Positions 2,663 through 6,243 of a DNA stretch of 6,243 nucleotides are shown here, piece by piece. Below the pieces are notes generated by a model. It saw only the letters and a program-made list of their open reading frames with translations. It was not told the origin of the DNA and made no database searches. The translations under genes were made by a program, and so were the position numbers. The stretch's first letter is position 1. The number at the start of each line of letters is the position of its first letter. The stretch comes from Candidatus Fermentibacterota bacterium (lineage in GTDB: Bacteria; JAFGKV01), in the NCBI GenBank assembly GCA_030620115.1, contig JAUXFG010000198.1:1-6243 (forward strand), read 5' to 3'.

Positions 2663-3207
2663 CAGTCAATGTATCTCCGAATGTCTTGTGCAGCAGCGTC
2701 GGCCATCTCACGATAGTAGCGGAGGAGTGTTTCAAGCCAGGTGGCGGTGTCGGCACTTCTTCCACGGCGGAGATTCAATGCCAGATGGAATGCGTCGGCA
2801 TAGGGAGAGGAATGACTGAGCTCATATTCCAGTGCAGCCGTCTTTGAGAGCATTTGACCATCACGCCAGAAGACGATACATCGCGCAAGCCAATGGAGCA
2901 TGCTGGCGAGCCAAATGGCGGACTGAGTTCGCCATTTCCCCAGCGTCTCGATATCTCCTTTTGTTTGCCGTATGAGGTCTTCTTTGCAGGGATGCGAGAA
3001 TTCGACTGGTGCGCCGAAGTATAGATGATCGTGGTTGGCCAGCATATATCGATCAAAGGGCGTGATGGGATTGGAGACGTCCCATTTGCGCGTTGTTCCA
3101 CCGGCAACATAGCAGGCAGCCTGGATTTCCTGGCTACGGGCAATGGCAGCCTGGAATGTAGGGCGCCTCAACCACCTGTCCAGACTCCCAACCGCCTTCT
3201 GCGCCAA
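2662..3207 (-). CDS. C-terminal helical part of the broken AadA-like nucleotidyltransferase
   Basis: This open frame encodes up to 181 residues. Its first possible start is a TTG at 3207 without a ribosome binding site and directly after a TGA, so independent translation is unlikely. About the first 19 codons are the wrong frame over the N-terminal part. The real sequence begins near AAIARSQEIQAACYV. The rest (NPITPFDRYML, LYFGAPVEF, LARCIVFWRDGQMLSKTAALEY) is the helical C-terminal domain of the nucleotidyltransferase. It ends in TGATG, shared with the next gene. A HEPN toxin was considered, but no RX4-6H motif is visible. Confidence 0.65.
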   Translation of the reverse strand: MAQKAVGSLDRWLRRPTFQAAIARSQEIQAACYVAGGTTRKWDVSNPITPFDRYMLANHDHLYFGAPVEFSHPCKEDLIRQTKGDIETLGKWRTQSAIWLASMLHWLARCIVFWRDGQMLSKTAALEYELSHSSPYADAFHLALNLRRGRSADTATWLETLLRYYREMADAAAQDIRRYID

Positions 3208-3439
3208 TCACGAAGCGTTCCATCATCTGATCATGGATCAAACCGATAGTCTGCCCCTCCGCTTGTGTGATGGGAAGATGTAGAATCACACACGCGTCCA
3301 CATCGCTCCATCCGGGCTGGAAGTCCCCCAAGGTCACGCTGCCGAAGAGGAGCACGGATTGCAGATTCTCGCCCAAAGCATCTTGTACTTCCGCAAGCCA
3401 CCACTCAAGTAAGCGCTCAACCGCGAAAGGTATTTCCAT
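3134..3439 (-). CDS. N-terminal catalytic part of the broken AadA-like nucleotidyltransferase
   Basis: This frame encodes 101 residues from the ATG at 3439. A GTG at 3502 would overlap the upstream methyltransferase stop (GTGA) and add 21 residues, but it has no spaced ribosome binding site. The ATG at 3439 has AGAGG at the right distance and gives the N-terminus usual for the family (helix LLEWWLAEVQDALG, then the GS and DVD motifs). The last residues GCHCP before the TAG are probably out of frame. As it stands, the product keeps the catalytic motifs but lacks the helical domain that completes the substrate pocket in AadA. Confidence 0.7.
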   Translation of the reverse strand: MEIPFAVERLLEWWLAEVQDALGENLQSVLLFGSVTLGDFQPGWSDVDACVILHLPITQAEGQTIGLIHDQMMERFVIGAEGGWESGQVVEAPYIPGCHCP

Positions 3440-3444
3440 CTTTG

Positions 3445-3449
3445 CCTCT
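3445..3449 (-). promoter_or_regulatory. ribosome binding site AGAGG of the nucleotidyltransferase gene
   Basis: AGAGG on the minus strand lies five bases before the ATG at 3439 and favours that start over the GTG at 3502. Confidence 0.55.
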
Positions 3450-3498
3450 GCCCTCTTATCGCACCCAACGGCTGAAATCAGCAACGCGTTGTTCGCGA

Positions 3499-4158
3499 TC
3501 ACCTCTTGGTGTGGTAGATCACATTCCAGCTTTTCTCTTCAGTGCGTTCGATATACTCGACATTGTCTGCGACATCCTCAAGAATCTCGATAATTTCTTC
3601 CTTGGTGGGGAAGTTCTTGACGATTTCGAATATGCGGCCATCTGAGAGAGTGCGTTGCTCAAGGGTATTTCCATCATCATCCTCTCTTCTGATCTCGCAT
3701 TCGTATGGAAGTTGGTCGACGAATAGCACCGGCGAGCCAGGGACAAGCTTGCGGTGAAGAGTTGAGAGGAAGACAGGAAGCCGGCGCTTCGGAACATGGG
3801 ACCACCACCAAATGGCGAAGGCCGCGGTGAAGCCTCCGGGGATGCCATCGAGGGAGTAGGCGTCGGCAATCTGAAACGTGACGTTTATCAGGTGTGCGCA
3901 TCTGTTTTGCGCCACGGAGACAACCGAAGGGTTGATGTCAATGGCAAGAACAGAGGCAGCAACCTCGCCGATCACCTCGGTCCAGTATCCTGTCCCGCAC
4001 GCGATTTCAAGCACGTCGTGCCCCCTGAACAGCGCCCTGTATCTGGCCTTGATGGGAACCCGAAGTTTTTCCGATTCGGGATCGGTGTATCCAGCGCTAA
4101 CATCGTATTCCAGTGCCCGTTCCGCGTAGTATCGAGATACGTCGTCAGCCAAAGACAT
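3499..4158 (-). CDS. class I SAM-dependent methyltransferase (first of the operon)
   Basis: The protein has 219 residues and a complete Rossmann core. Motif I is [11 protein letters not shown] (49-59), the acidic ribose-binding residue is D74 in LAIDIN, D99 in the ADAYSL block probably contacts the adenine, and [14 protein letters not shown] (114-127) covers the motif IV-V region. The N-terminus [10 protein letters not shown] and the late block [16 protein letters not shown] (174-189) match, from memory, a common uncharacterised family with the [10 protein letters not shown] and WWSHVP signatures. The ATG at 4158 is chosen because GGGGAAG lies five bases upstream; a TTG at 4182 would add eight residues without a ribosome binding site. 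It is the first gene of the minus-strand operon, 59 bases before the nucleotidyltransferase start. The sequence gives no substrate. It is only distantly like the other methyltransferase here, so the pair is not a recent duplication. Confidence 0.9.
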
Positions 4159-4163
4159 GATTG

Positions 4164-4170
4164 CTTCCCC
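4164..4170 (-). promoter_or_regulatory. ribosome binding site GGGGAAG of the first methyltransferase
   Basis: GGGGAAG on the minus strand is five bases before the ATG at 4158 and decides against the upstream TTG at 4182. Confidence 0.55.
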
Positions 4171-4203
4171 GTGACCTCTCAAAAAACCTGTGCAATATTG
4201 GAG

Positions 4204-4554: not shown

Positions 4555-4720
4555 CGTTCACGGGTTGAAAGGTTCAAAAGTTCAAGGTTCTTCAGAAATC
4601 TGAACGTGATCTTGAATCCGGCTTCTAACGGGAAACTCAGAACCCGTAAACGCCTACACATTGCCCAAGCTGACTTCAGGCAACCCTGAACGGTGAACTC
4701 TGAACCTATGAACGCCTACA
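4555..4720. repeat. GTTCA / TGAAC word repeats and a split AACGCCTACA direct repeat
   Basis: Words of the type GGTTGAAAGGTTCAAAAG and GTTCAAGGTTC (4563-4591) are followed by TGAAC words at 4600-4712. AACGCCTACA occurs exactly at 4649-4658 and at 4711-4720, 62 bases apart, each after a related stretch (CTCAGAACCCGTA and CTCTGAACCTATG). TTCAGG-CAAC-CCTGAA (4675-4690) is a perfect 6-bp hairpin between the two direct copies. No gene is seen. Confidence 0.5.
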
Positions 4721-4739
4721 TCCGTTCCCATTCGCCACG

Positions 4740-4757: not shown

Positions 4758-4766
4758 GAGGAGGTG
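4758..4766 (+). promoter_or_regulatory. strong Shine-Dalgarno GAGGAGGTG of the TPR gene
   Basis: GAGGAGGTG is followed by six bases and then the ATG at 4773. An in-frame GTG at 4764 lies inside this site and is therefore rejected as start. Confidence 0.85.
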
Positions 4767-4772
4767 CTTCCA

Positions 4773-5927
4773 ATGAAACAGATTTCGCACATGCTATCGA
4801 TTGTATTGATCCTATGGACGAGCGCCCTGGCCCAACCCCCCGAACCAGTCGTGACTTTGCGGCAGAAGGTCCTCTCCAAGGAATCATACATGAGTCTTGT
4901 TCAGCAATGGCTCGATTACATGGATGAGCACGGTGAAAGCACGGAAGGGCATCTCAATGTTGCTCAGGCACAACGGTATGCAGGCGAAGCCAAGGAGCTC
5001 TACCTGCGTCACTACCGCAGGGCCGTGGAACTCGAGCCGAATTCCGTCCGCGCGCTGGATCTTTGCGGTTCTTTCACCTGGCGTCTCGGCACTCCTGAAG
5101 ACAAAGCCCAAGGGCGTCAAATGCTGGAACGCGCCAAGAATCTCGATCCGAGCTATGGAGAGATCCTGTACAGCCTCTACGGGATGTACTGCTGCGAAGG
5201 CCGCCTTGATGAGACAGAGGATATCGCCAGTGATATCTACCGCAGGGGCATCATCTCCACACCACTGCAGGACTTCGGCTACAACCTCCTGGCAGGTCTC
5301 CCGGAAAAGGCCGTGCTCTTCACCAATGGAGACAATGATACCTACCCACCCATCTCCCTCCAGGCAGGGCTCGGCTATAGAGAAGATGTGCTTGTTTTGA
5401 ACATAAATCTTCTCAAATGCGAGGAATACGCGCAGGCGATTGCGGAGCGTTATCCTGACTGGTTCCCACAGTCGAAGGCGACCGCTGACAGCGGCCGCCT
5501 CTCTACCGCGAAAGCAGTGGCCACAGAACTCTTGAGAACAGGAAAACACCCCCTCTATGCGGCCATAAGCGTCGATTTCGACGATCTGCCTTGTACTAGG
5601 ACTATCCAAGGCTTGTGTGCAAGGATTGACAGACTTGAAGGCGATGAAGCACATATCGACGAAAAGAAAACCTTCTCTCTGCTGCGAGACGTGTACCGTC
5701 TCGACAGCGCCACGAACTGGGCCTATCCATGGGAGCTCAGGAACGCGGAGCGAATGCTCATGAACAACTACTGCGCCCTGGCATACCGAGCAGCAGTTGC
5801 ATCAAGGGAACACGGCGATGAAGAAGCGGCCCGTTTCCTCGCAGCCATGGGACGCCACATAGCCGAATTCCATGAGCTGGGTGCCGCAATCGCGGCATTC
5901 GATGAGTTGATAGGATCAAACGATTGA
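4773..5927 (+). CDS. secreted TPR protein with a DUF2723-tail-like domain
   Basis: The protein has 384 residues. MKQISHMLSIVLILWTSALA|Q is a signal peptide with probable signal peptidase I cleavage after residue 20, so the protein is exported. Residues about 60-165 contain helix pairs typical of TPR: YRRAVELEPNSVRALDLCG (81-99), MLERAKNLDPSYGEILYSLYG (117-137) and GRLDETEDIASDIYRRG (143-159). The second half starts with KAVLFTNGDNDTYP (179-192), then LQAGLGYREDVLVLNINLL (196-214), HPLYAAISVDF (259-269) and a distal ERMLMNNYCALAYRAA (326-341). From memory, LFTNGDNDTFP followed by a 'RpDV.vvNlsLL' block is the hallmark of the soluble C-terminal domain of DUF2723 multi-membrane proteins, which are glycosyltransferase-like. 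Here it stands alone without the membrane part. It is monocistronic, with no close partner. A role in envelope glycan or protein modification is inference. Confidence 0.85.
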   Translation: MKQISHMLSIVLILWTSALAQPPEPVVTLRQKVLSKESYMSLVQQWLDYMDEHGESTEGHLNVAQAQRYAGEAKELYLRHYRRAVELEPNSVRALDLCGSFTWRLGTPEDKAQGRQMLERAKNLDPSYGEILYSLYGMYCCEGRLDETEDIASDIYRRGIISTPLQDFGYNLLAGLPEKAVLFTNGDNDTYPPISLQAGLGYREDVLVLNINLLKCEEYAQAIAERYPDWFPQSKATADSGRLSTAKAVATELLRTGKHPLYAAISVDFDDLPCTRTIQGLCARIDRLEGDEAHIDEKKTFSLLRDVYRLDSATNWAYPWELRNAERMLMNNYCALAYRAAVASREHGDEEAARFLAAMGRHIAEFHELGAAIAAFDELIGSND

Positions 5928-5933
5928 GGGAGA

Positions 5934-5970
5934 GAATCTGGAATCTGGCAATTTCTAATCTGTCAATCTC
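5934..5970. repeat. GAATCTG word repeat after the TPR gene
   Basis: GAATCTG occurs twice in tandem (5934-5947), then TAATCTG and CAATCTC follow at irregular spacing. The words resemble the complement of the CAGATT words at 1774-1810. Further on, AAGTG-GTTTG-CACTT (5994-6008) is a small hairpin without a T tract. No clear terminator for the TPR gene was found. Confidence 0.45.
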
Positions 5971-6039
5971 GGGATGTTTCAGGATAGATTGGGAAGTGGT
6001 TTGCACTTTCGGAACCCTCCCTGTAATGACTGAGGCCCC

Positions 6040-6243
6040 GGGGTCATCGCGAGCGACAGCGCGGCGATCCCGCGTACCGCGCGGGATTGCTTCGTCGCGG
6101 ACTCTATCCTTAGCTTGCCGAAGGGCTCCTCGCAATGACAGGAGGCCTGGGGTCATCGCGAGCGAAAGCGCAGCGATCTCAATGGGTGGATGAGATTGCT
6201 TCGTCGCGGACTCTATCCTTAGCTTGCCGAAGGGCTCCTCGCA
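6040..6243. repeat. tandem 109-bp units of a GTCATYGCGAG palindromic element
   Basis: Unit 1 is 6043-6139, with ends GTCATCGCGAG and CTCGCAATGAC (11-bp inverted ends, one mismatch). Unit 2 starts at 6152 and is cut by the window edge. The period is exactly 109 bases with no indel. The last 49 bases shared (6086-6134 and 6195-6243) are identical. Left parts differ at two bases. The centre is quite different but keeps a hairpin in both. CTCCCTGTAATGAC (6017-6030) sits where the end of an earlier unit would fall and may be its remnant. The element is non-coding. Confidence 0.85.
6067..6087. repeat. central hairpin of unit 1: ATCCCGCG / CGCGGGAT
   Basis: This is a perfect 8-bp stem with loop TACCG, extended by GCG against TGC outside. 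The equivalent position in unit 2 (6176-6196) has ATCTCA and TGAGAT with a nine-base loop and the same total length of 21. Confidence 0.7.

Follow-up and report, generated by a model that had tools for sequence, protein, structure and literature searches.

The window, by which we mean the whole 6,243-nt stretch of Candidatus Fermentibacterota DNA analysed here, carries a gene whose product we read from sequence comparisons as the exported third component of an ECF sigma/anti-sigma system: it would act in a role like that of RseB and come from an unrelated family, and we put the probability of this reading at roughly 0.58. In the protein a TPR superhelix follows a signal peptide and precedes a domain otherwise found in the extracytoplasmic tail of DUF2723/TMEM260-like proteins (Pfam PF11028, CAZy GT117), a family that includes the human O-mannosyltransferase TMEM260 (PDB 9rql). 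Since in most close relatives the gene comes first in a sigma/anti-sigma operon, the protein is probably a sensor part of ECF systems, and the placement of the relatives in such operons behind ECF-type promoters suggests a role in regulation, probably through binding of a ligand or a partner. An exported component derived from a glycosyltransferase tail domain in such a system is probably previously undescribed: in the literature searched, to which the ECF re-classification study did not belong, we found no description of an exported third gene in operons of this kind. The term DUF2723 was not found in the literature searched either.

The window gene and its product

The open reading frame is real, starts with ATG and encodes 384 amino acids; its features are collected in Table 1. 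The N-terminus, MKQISHMLSIVLILWTSALA followed by Q, was recognized as a signal peptide by eye rather than with a dedicated predictor, from its n-region, its hydrophobic core and the A-L-A preceding the Q, and residues 2-17 form a helix in the AlphaFold2 model. No further transmembrane segment was seen in the sequence or in the model. With 68 relatives in the alignment the model of the whole protein reached a mean pLDDT of 92.8 and a pTM of 0.89. It shows helix pairs from residue 36 to 174, then a strand (181-184), a helix (187-200), a strand (207-210) and more helices, and in the C-terminal part three strands (261-264, 275-279 and 282-287) followed by three long helices. The second domain has an alpha/beta core up to about residue 315 with helices beyond, and modelled alone it gave a pLDDT of 91.4. 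The NGDNDTYP block lies where the first beta strand ends C-terminally and the following helix begins.

Searches of the whole window protein against Pfam and NCBIfam returned TPR families only, and in the single-sequence Pfam search these matches were weak. The assignment as TPRs comes from the profile, which clearly matched designed TPRs and OGT, and from the confidently modelled helical repeats. Structural alignment of this part with the TPRs of O-GlcNAc transferase gave a VIA-align Z of 15 over 133 residues (rmsd 2.2), and a fold search with the whole protein returned TPR proteins alone.

Table 1. Positions of features in the window
Feature	Coordinates	Strand	Basis and remarks
ECF-type promoter candidate, CTGAAC-N17-CGTT	4700..4726	+	73 nt upstream of ATG
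Ribosome-binding site, GGAGG	4760..4764	+	sequence; eight bases before ATG
CDS, exported TPR + NGDNDT-domain protein, 384 aa	4773..5927	+	alignment of 68 proteins; AlphaFold2 model
Signal peptide, residues 1-20	4773..4832	+	sequence; predicted cleavage after ALA
TPR superhelix, about residues 21-160	4833..5252	+	profile match, model, structure alignment
DUF2723-tail-like domain, residues 166-365	5268..5867	+	HHalign to 38 full-length tails
TNGDNDTYP, residues 184-192	5322..5348	+	sequence
Invariant NGDNDTYP, residues 185-192	5325..5348	+	alignment, model
YREDVLVLNINLL, residues 202-214	5376..5414	+	R203, D205, N210 nearly invariant (family alignment)
Tandem repeat	6085..6243	.	50 nt identical at 6085-6134 and 6194-6243; contig end

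The tail domain and its free-standing family

The initial annotation, made from the sequence of the window, had taken the protein for a relative of the DUF2723 tail that stands free, is exported and carries TPRs, and the profile-profile match, the signal peptide and the TPR model bear this out. HHalign of the 68 free-standing proteins against 38 full-length DUF2723 tails gave a probability of 100 and an E-value of 3.4e-53 over 210 columns, covering residues 166-365 of the window protein. The length of this match indicates that the entire domain, beyond the two motifs, is common to both settings. The annotation had suggested looking for full-length DUF2723 proteins in the genome; two PF11028 proteins are encoded there, on contigs C1 and C276. 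The C1 protein is 48% identical to the window protein over 52 amino acids around the motif. The tail of the C276 protein (L004, a 793-aa frame in G000:C276) has diverged and reads LFTDNTPDL instead of LFTNGDNDT. It had also been claimed that the NGDNDT block is strictly kept where the transferase domain is missing; N, G, D, D, T, Y and P are indeed invariant in the 68 free-standing proteins, an invariance that is partly built in because the loci were gathered by a pattern on the motif itself. The domain profile also matches the solved chain of human TMEM260 (9rql, residues 421-479, E 7e-5), which retains just GD of NGDNDT.

PF11028, the N-terminal GT-C transmembrane module, was matched by the full-length proteins of the same genome but not by the window protein in the Pfam scan. 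In GT-C enzymes the catalytic acidic residues sit in this membrane module, which the window protein lacks. The annotation had further stated that TPR-like helices replace the membrane part. The TPRs are present as claimed, with the correction that full-length DUF2723 tails have TPRs too: the pairing of domain and TPRs is common to both settings and the order alone differs, with the TPRs after the domain in the full-length proteins and before it in the window protein. The genetic surroundings differ as well: DUF2723/TMEM260-like genes stand alone or with sugar genes, whereas the free-standing genes stand with ECF sigma factors.

Pfam has no model for the domain of about 200 residues, and a scan with the domain alone yielded scattered chance matches. 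With residues 163-346, Foldseek found nothing with an E-value below 0.08, and the best VIA-align Z was 3.6 in a fold library that does not list 9rql itself; since the 9rql sequence does match, its absence from the library carries no weight. As modelled, the domain is Rossmann-like in layout and without a trusted fold relative among solved structures.

Relatives were fetched with the pattern NGD[NM]DTY from 85,000 species genomes; 461 were found and the best 80 kept, every one from a metagenome-assembled genome. Among these best 80 of 461 about 75 are free-standing and mostly exported, the exceptions being three DUF2723 loci (L105, L108 and L118). The usual free-standing plan begins with a signal peptide or a lipobox; some 190 residues follow, then the motif and another 190-245 residues. 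About a third of these free-standing relatives are lipoprotein-like. Their hosts are distributed across FCB-group phyla and include Eisenbacteria, KSB1, Zixibacteria, Ignavibacteria, Neomarinimicrobiota, WOR-3, Calditrichota, Bacteroidota and others. In a maximum-likelihood tree a branch with support 100/98 separates all full-length tails from all free-standing domains, and the latter fall into three clades, I, II (which includes the window) and III. A subgroup of lipoproteins carries NGDMDTYP (L096, L098, L099, L104, L109 and L113, also L033) and shows no adjacent sigma gene where the downstream sequence suffices. Longer free-standing versions occur in L076 (6854-8785, 643 aa), still with a sigma gene directly downstream, and in L114 (6326-8152, 608 aa).

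Operon context and promoters

A census of neighbouring genes repeatedly turned up an ECF sigma gene directly downstream, and a profile made from eight of these sigma factors was then run over all loci. In 51 of the 69 free-standing loci (within the best 80 of 461) that have at least 500 nt of downstream sequence, the next gene, in the same orientation, is an ECF sigma gene; 50 of these 51 sigma genes are no more than 150 nt away, and 31 overlap the free-standing gene or abut it. Elsewhere in the 901 kb the profile picked up about five further sigma genes, and it found none in 41 control loci of full-length DUF2723 genes (137 kb). The linkage is found in clades I, II and III alike. The other 18 of the 69 relatives have no adjacent sigma gene, which we counted against the reading as a third component. 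Pfam sigma regions 2 and 4 were confirmed in two copies, those of the window's own genome and of Prado127. The distance matrices of sigma factors and partners correlate with r 0.92, a value confounded by species history. No free-standing gene was found beside a DUF2723 gene among the loci examined.

Nearly all sigma-linked loci contain a third gene, for a predicted membrane anti-sigma factor. By motif and hydropathy its layout is one TM helix, an outer tail of 30-100 amino acids and mostly an Hx3Cx2C motif. This motif defines zinc-type class I anti-sigma domains (ASDI) (PMC7406223), and the partner gene shares the layout of class I anti-sigma factors with their single TM helix. The zinc motif is absent from the Bacteroidota copies, and one of the three candidates tested touched the Pfam zinc-finger model, below the cut-off. 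Class I anti-sigma domains adjoin 6% of Bacteroidetes ECFs in one survey, in which TPR proteins are not mentioned (PMC7406223). The tails of the KSB1-type anti-sigma factors are conserved within about 20 residues of the C-terminus (QkxGxnxxeDSxL...), with D-S/T-x-L about 12 residues before the end; plausibly this conserved tail motif is a docking peptide for the TPR groove, or else a protease site. The pattern (R/K)(E/D)DSxLxxf... was seen in the last ~20 residues of the anti-sigma genes of L066, L077, L086, L094, L095, L100, L101, L102, L106, L115 and L119, and the non-zinc anti-sigma proteins of Bacteroidota L073 and L090 have similar tail ends.

In the source genome the contig of the window (C129) ends 316 nt past the gene, inside the repeat and before any sigma gene expected downstream. 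In L040 (Eisenbacteria Prado127), the nearest relative, the gene is followed by that of a sigma factor whose orthologue in the source genome lies on another contig (G000:C283:428-1000), with 51% identity and an E-value of 5e-51 against 31% for the next best. It starts 428 nt from the contig start in the orientation that would fit C283 after C129, and is followed by a predicted anti-sigma gene with HLERCTRC and a TM segment at 93-110. No overlap in sequence links the end of the window to the beginning of C283, so that the arrangement is at most consistent with one operon broken by repeats. Adjacency in the window genome is therefore what we infer, with the sigma/anti-sigma pair on another contig and the window contig ending in a repeat; as the L040 genes overlap, an insertion of at least 740 nt would be required here. 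Repeats, dispersed and tandem, occupy 1211-1726 and 5933-6243 of the window; besides the one at the contig end they are a 48-nt unit in three copies (at 1211, 1335 and 1622), two 42-nt units (1398 and 1685) that are inverted relatives of it, and an inverted pair of 20 nt that match perfectly (1324-1343/5933-5952). On the minus strand a gene of nucleotidyltransferase type is flanked by two genes for class I methyltransferases (1994-2662 and 3502-4182); here an NTP_transf_2 frame (3137-3502, minus) overlaps a Pfam-less frame (2665-3207, minus) in another reading frame; the pair at 2665-3502 may represent the two parts of a single nucleotidyltransferase gene that a frameshift has divided.

To look for promoters, spaced tetramer pairs in the sequence preceding 70 free-standing genes were counted without supervision, with shuffled controls. 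TGAA or GAAC paired with GATT or TGTA occurred in 14-16 loci, compared with at most 9 for any pair in the shuffled controls. TGAAC-N16-GATTA was found in 18 of 27 clade III loci and TGAAC-N16-TGTA in 16 of 26 clade I loci. The clade II relatives carry CTCAAC-N17-CGTT, which becomes CTSAAC-N17-CGTT once the window is included; the S at position 3 (CTG in the window, CTC in the relatives) was allowed after the window had been seen. Each clade motif has a background rate of 0.0005-0.0025 per locus and almost never occurs in the other clades. In clade I the promoter tracks the sigma gene: it is present in 15 of 18 loci with, and in none of five without, a sigma gene (Fisher p 0.0017). Judged by their sequences, the clade motifs are ECF-type promoters in which the -10 element varies by clade along with the sigma factor.

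The window contains a single match to CTSAAC-N17-CGTT, upstream of the gene, where 0.01 is expected. With the same spacing the clade II motif lies 69-82 nt upstream of the gene in L042, L043, L044, L049 and L050, with one at 41; motifs in L125, L127 and L128 were left uncounted, as these loci are apparently from the same species as L044, L043 and L049. L040 has no clear promoter match. Genome-wide the window-type pattern has 14 matches in the own genome compared with 10 in the reversed control, a frequency near chance, so that the support for the window promoter is its position and not its rarity, and no regulon can be read from the pattern.

Proposed role and competing explanations

As a third component the protein could work as follows. 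The sigma factor would transcribe its own operon from the upstream ECF-type promoter. The exported protein would remain periplasmic, or sit on the outer membrane in its lipidated versions, and through its TPR groove it may hold the anti-sigma factor by the latter's short C-terminal periplasmic tail, or be held by that tail. The NGDNDT block is a candidate ligand site because it sits at a strand end, the typical ligand position in alpha/beta folds; in analogy with the glycosyltransferase tail it might bind a signal such as a glycan, a lipid-linked sugar or an unfolded exported peptide. Binding of the signal would then alter the grip on the anti-sigma factor and release the sigma factor. According to one proposal, TMEM260 and TMTC enzymes use their TPR tails to recruit acceptor proteins (PMC11292533); this suggests an exported protein or a glycan as the binding partner of the domain pair.

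By analogy, the closest working parallel is RseB of the RpoE-RseA-RseB system, likewise an exported protein whose gene shares an operon with those of an ECF sigma factor and an anti-sigma factor that crosses the membrane once. RseB binds to RseA on its periplasmic domain and protects it from cleavage (PMC8103513), whereas for the window family binding to the anti-sigma tail is what the parallel would predict. Sequence and architecture are unrelated, as Pfam scans of the window protein and of 68 relatives brought up TPR families only and no RseB/MucB match, and in contrast to the RseB system the gene order here is exported protein, sigma factor, anti-sigma factor. TPRs are tied to ECF regulation in ECF42 sigma factors, which bear a TPR extension (PMC8999054, PMC8103513); those TPRs are cytoplasmic and fused to the sigma factor, while in the window family they are exported on a separate protein.

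The chief rival explanation is that the protein is an effector and not a sensor, namely the main output of the ECF operon, which handles glycans or unfolded exported proteins without contact to the anti-sigma factor. We consider this rather unlikely, although a first gene behind the promoter suits a target as well as a regulator, the relatives without an adjacent sigma gene (18 of 69) imply a protein able to work apart from sigma, and the domain belongs to envelope glycosylation enzymes. What speaks for a sensor instead is that the tight, often overlapping coupling to sigma and anti-sigma genes in three deep clades exceeds the needs of a target gene, as does the conserved C-terminal peptide on the clade I anti-sigma tails. 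The homology of tail domain and TPRs to DUF2723 proteins, together with the full-length copies in the source genome, would also fit an accessory of glycosylation that recruits or presents acceptor proteins in trans to the transferases of the same cell; with sigma and anti-sigma genes as the neighbours, and none of the loci examined placing the gene beside a DUF2723 gene, we regard this as improbable.

The initial annotation had left room for a catalytic role of the motif. An enzyme in its own right might well display what is seen here, polar residues that do not vary and that sit where a beta strand of a Rossmann-like layout ends, but solved structures gave no similar fold with known catalysis (best Z 3.6) and human TMEM260 keeps GD alone, which makes catalysis at the NGDNDT site very improbable. 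That the gene is the relic of a broken DUF2723 gene, to which the confinement of homology to the tail might point, is hardly credible given an intact frame of 384 codons with its own signal peptide and promoter and 68 homologues, and we rejected it because the 100/98 branch parts the full-length from the free-standing domains.

ECF systems are the main route of bacteria from envelope signal to transcription and, to our knowledge, most of them have no known sensor. Read as the exported third component, the window protein stands for a concrete exported candidate sensor family that occurs in many uncultured phyla and comes with its operon, its promoters and a peptide that may serve for docking. 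A further-reading proposal, which we hold only tentatively and think doubtful in its full extent, is a new three-component ECF class, widespread in the FCB group, in which NGDNDT would sense envelope glycans or glycoproteins, the anti-sigma peptide would be held by the protein and the state of glycosylation would be passed on to transcription. The Pfam-less tail domain of DUF2723/TMEM260 proteins gains in this family a soluble, well-folding stand-alone form that could be used for finding its ligand. TMEM260 is a congenital heart disease gene, and the ligand of the stand-alone domain would bear on the substrate choice of TMEM260.
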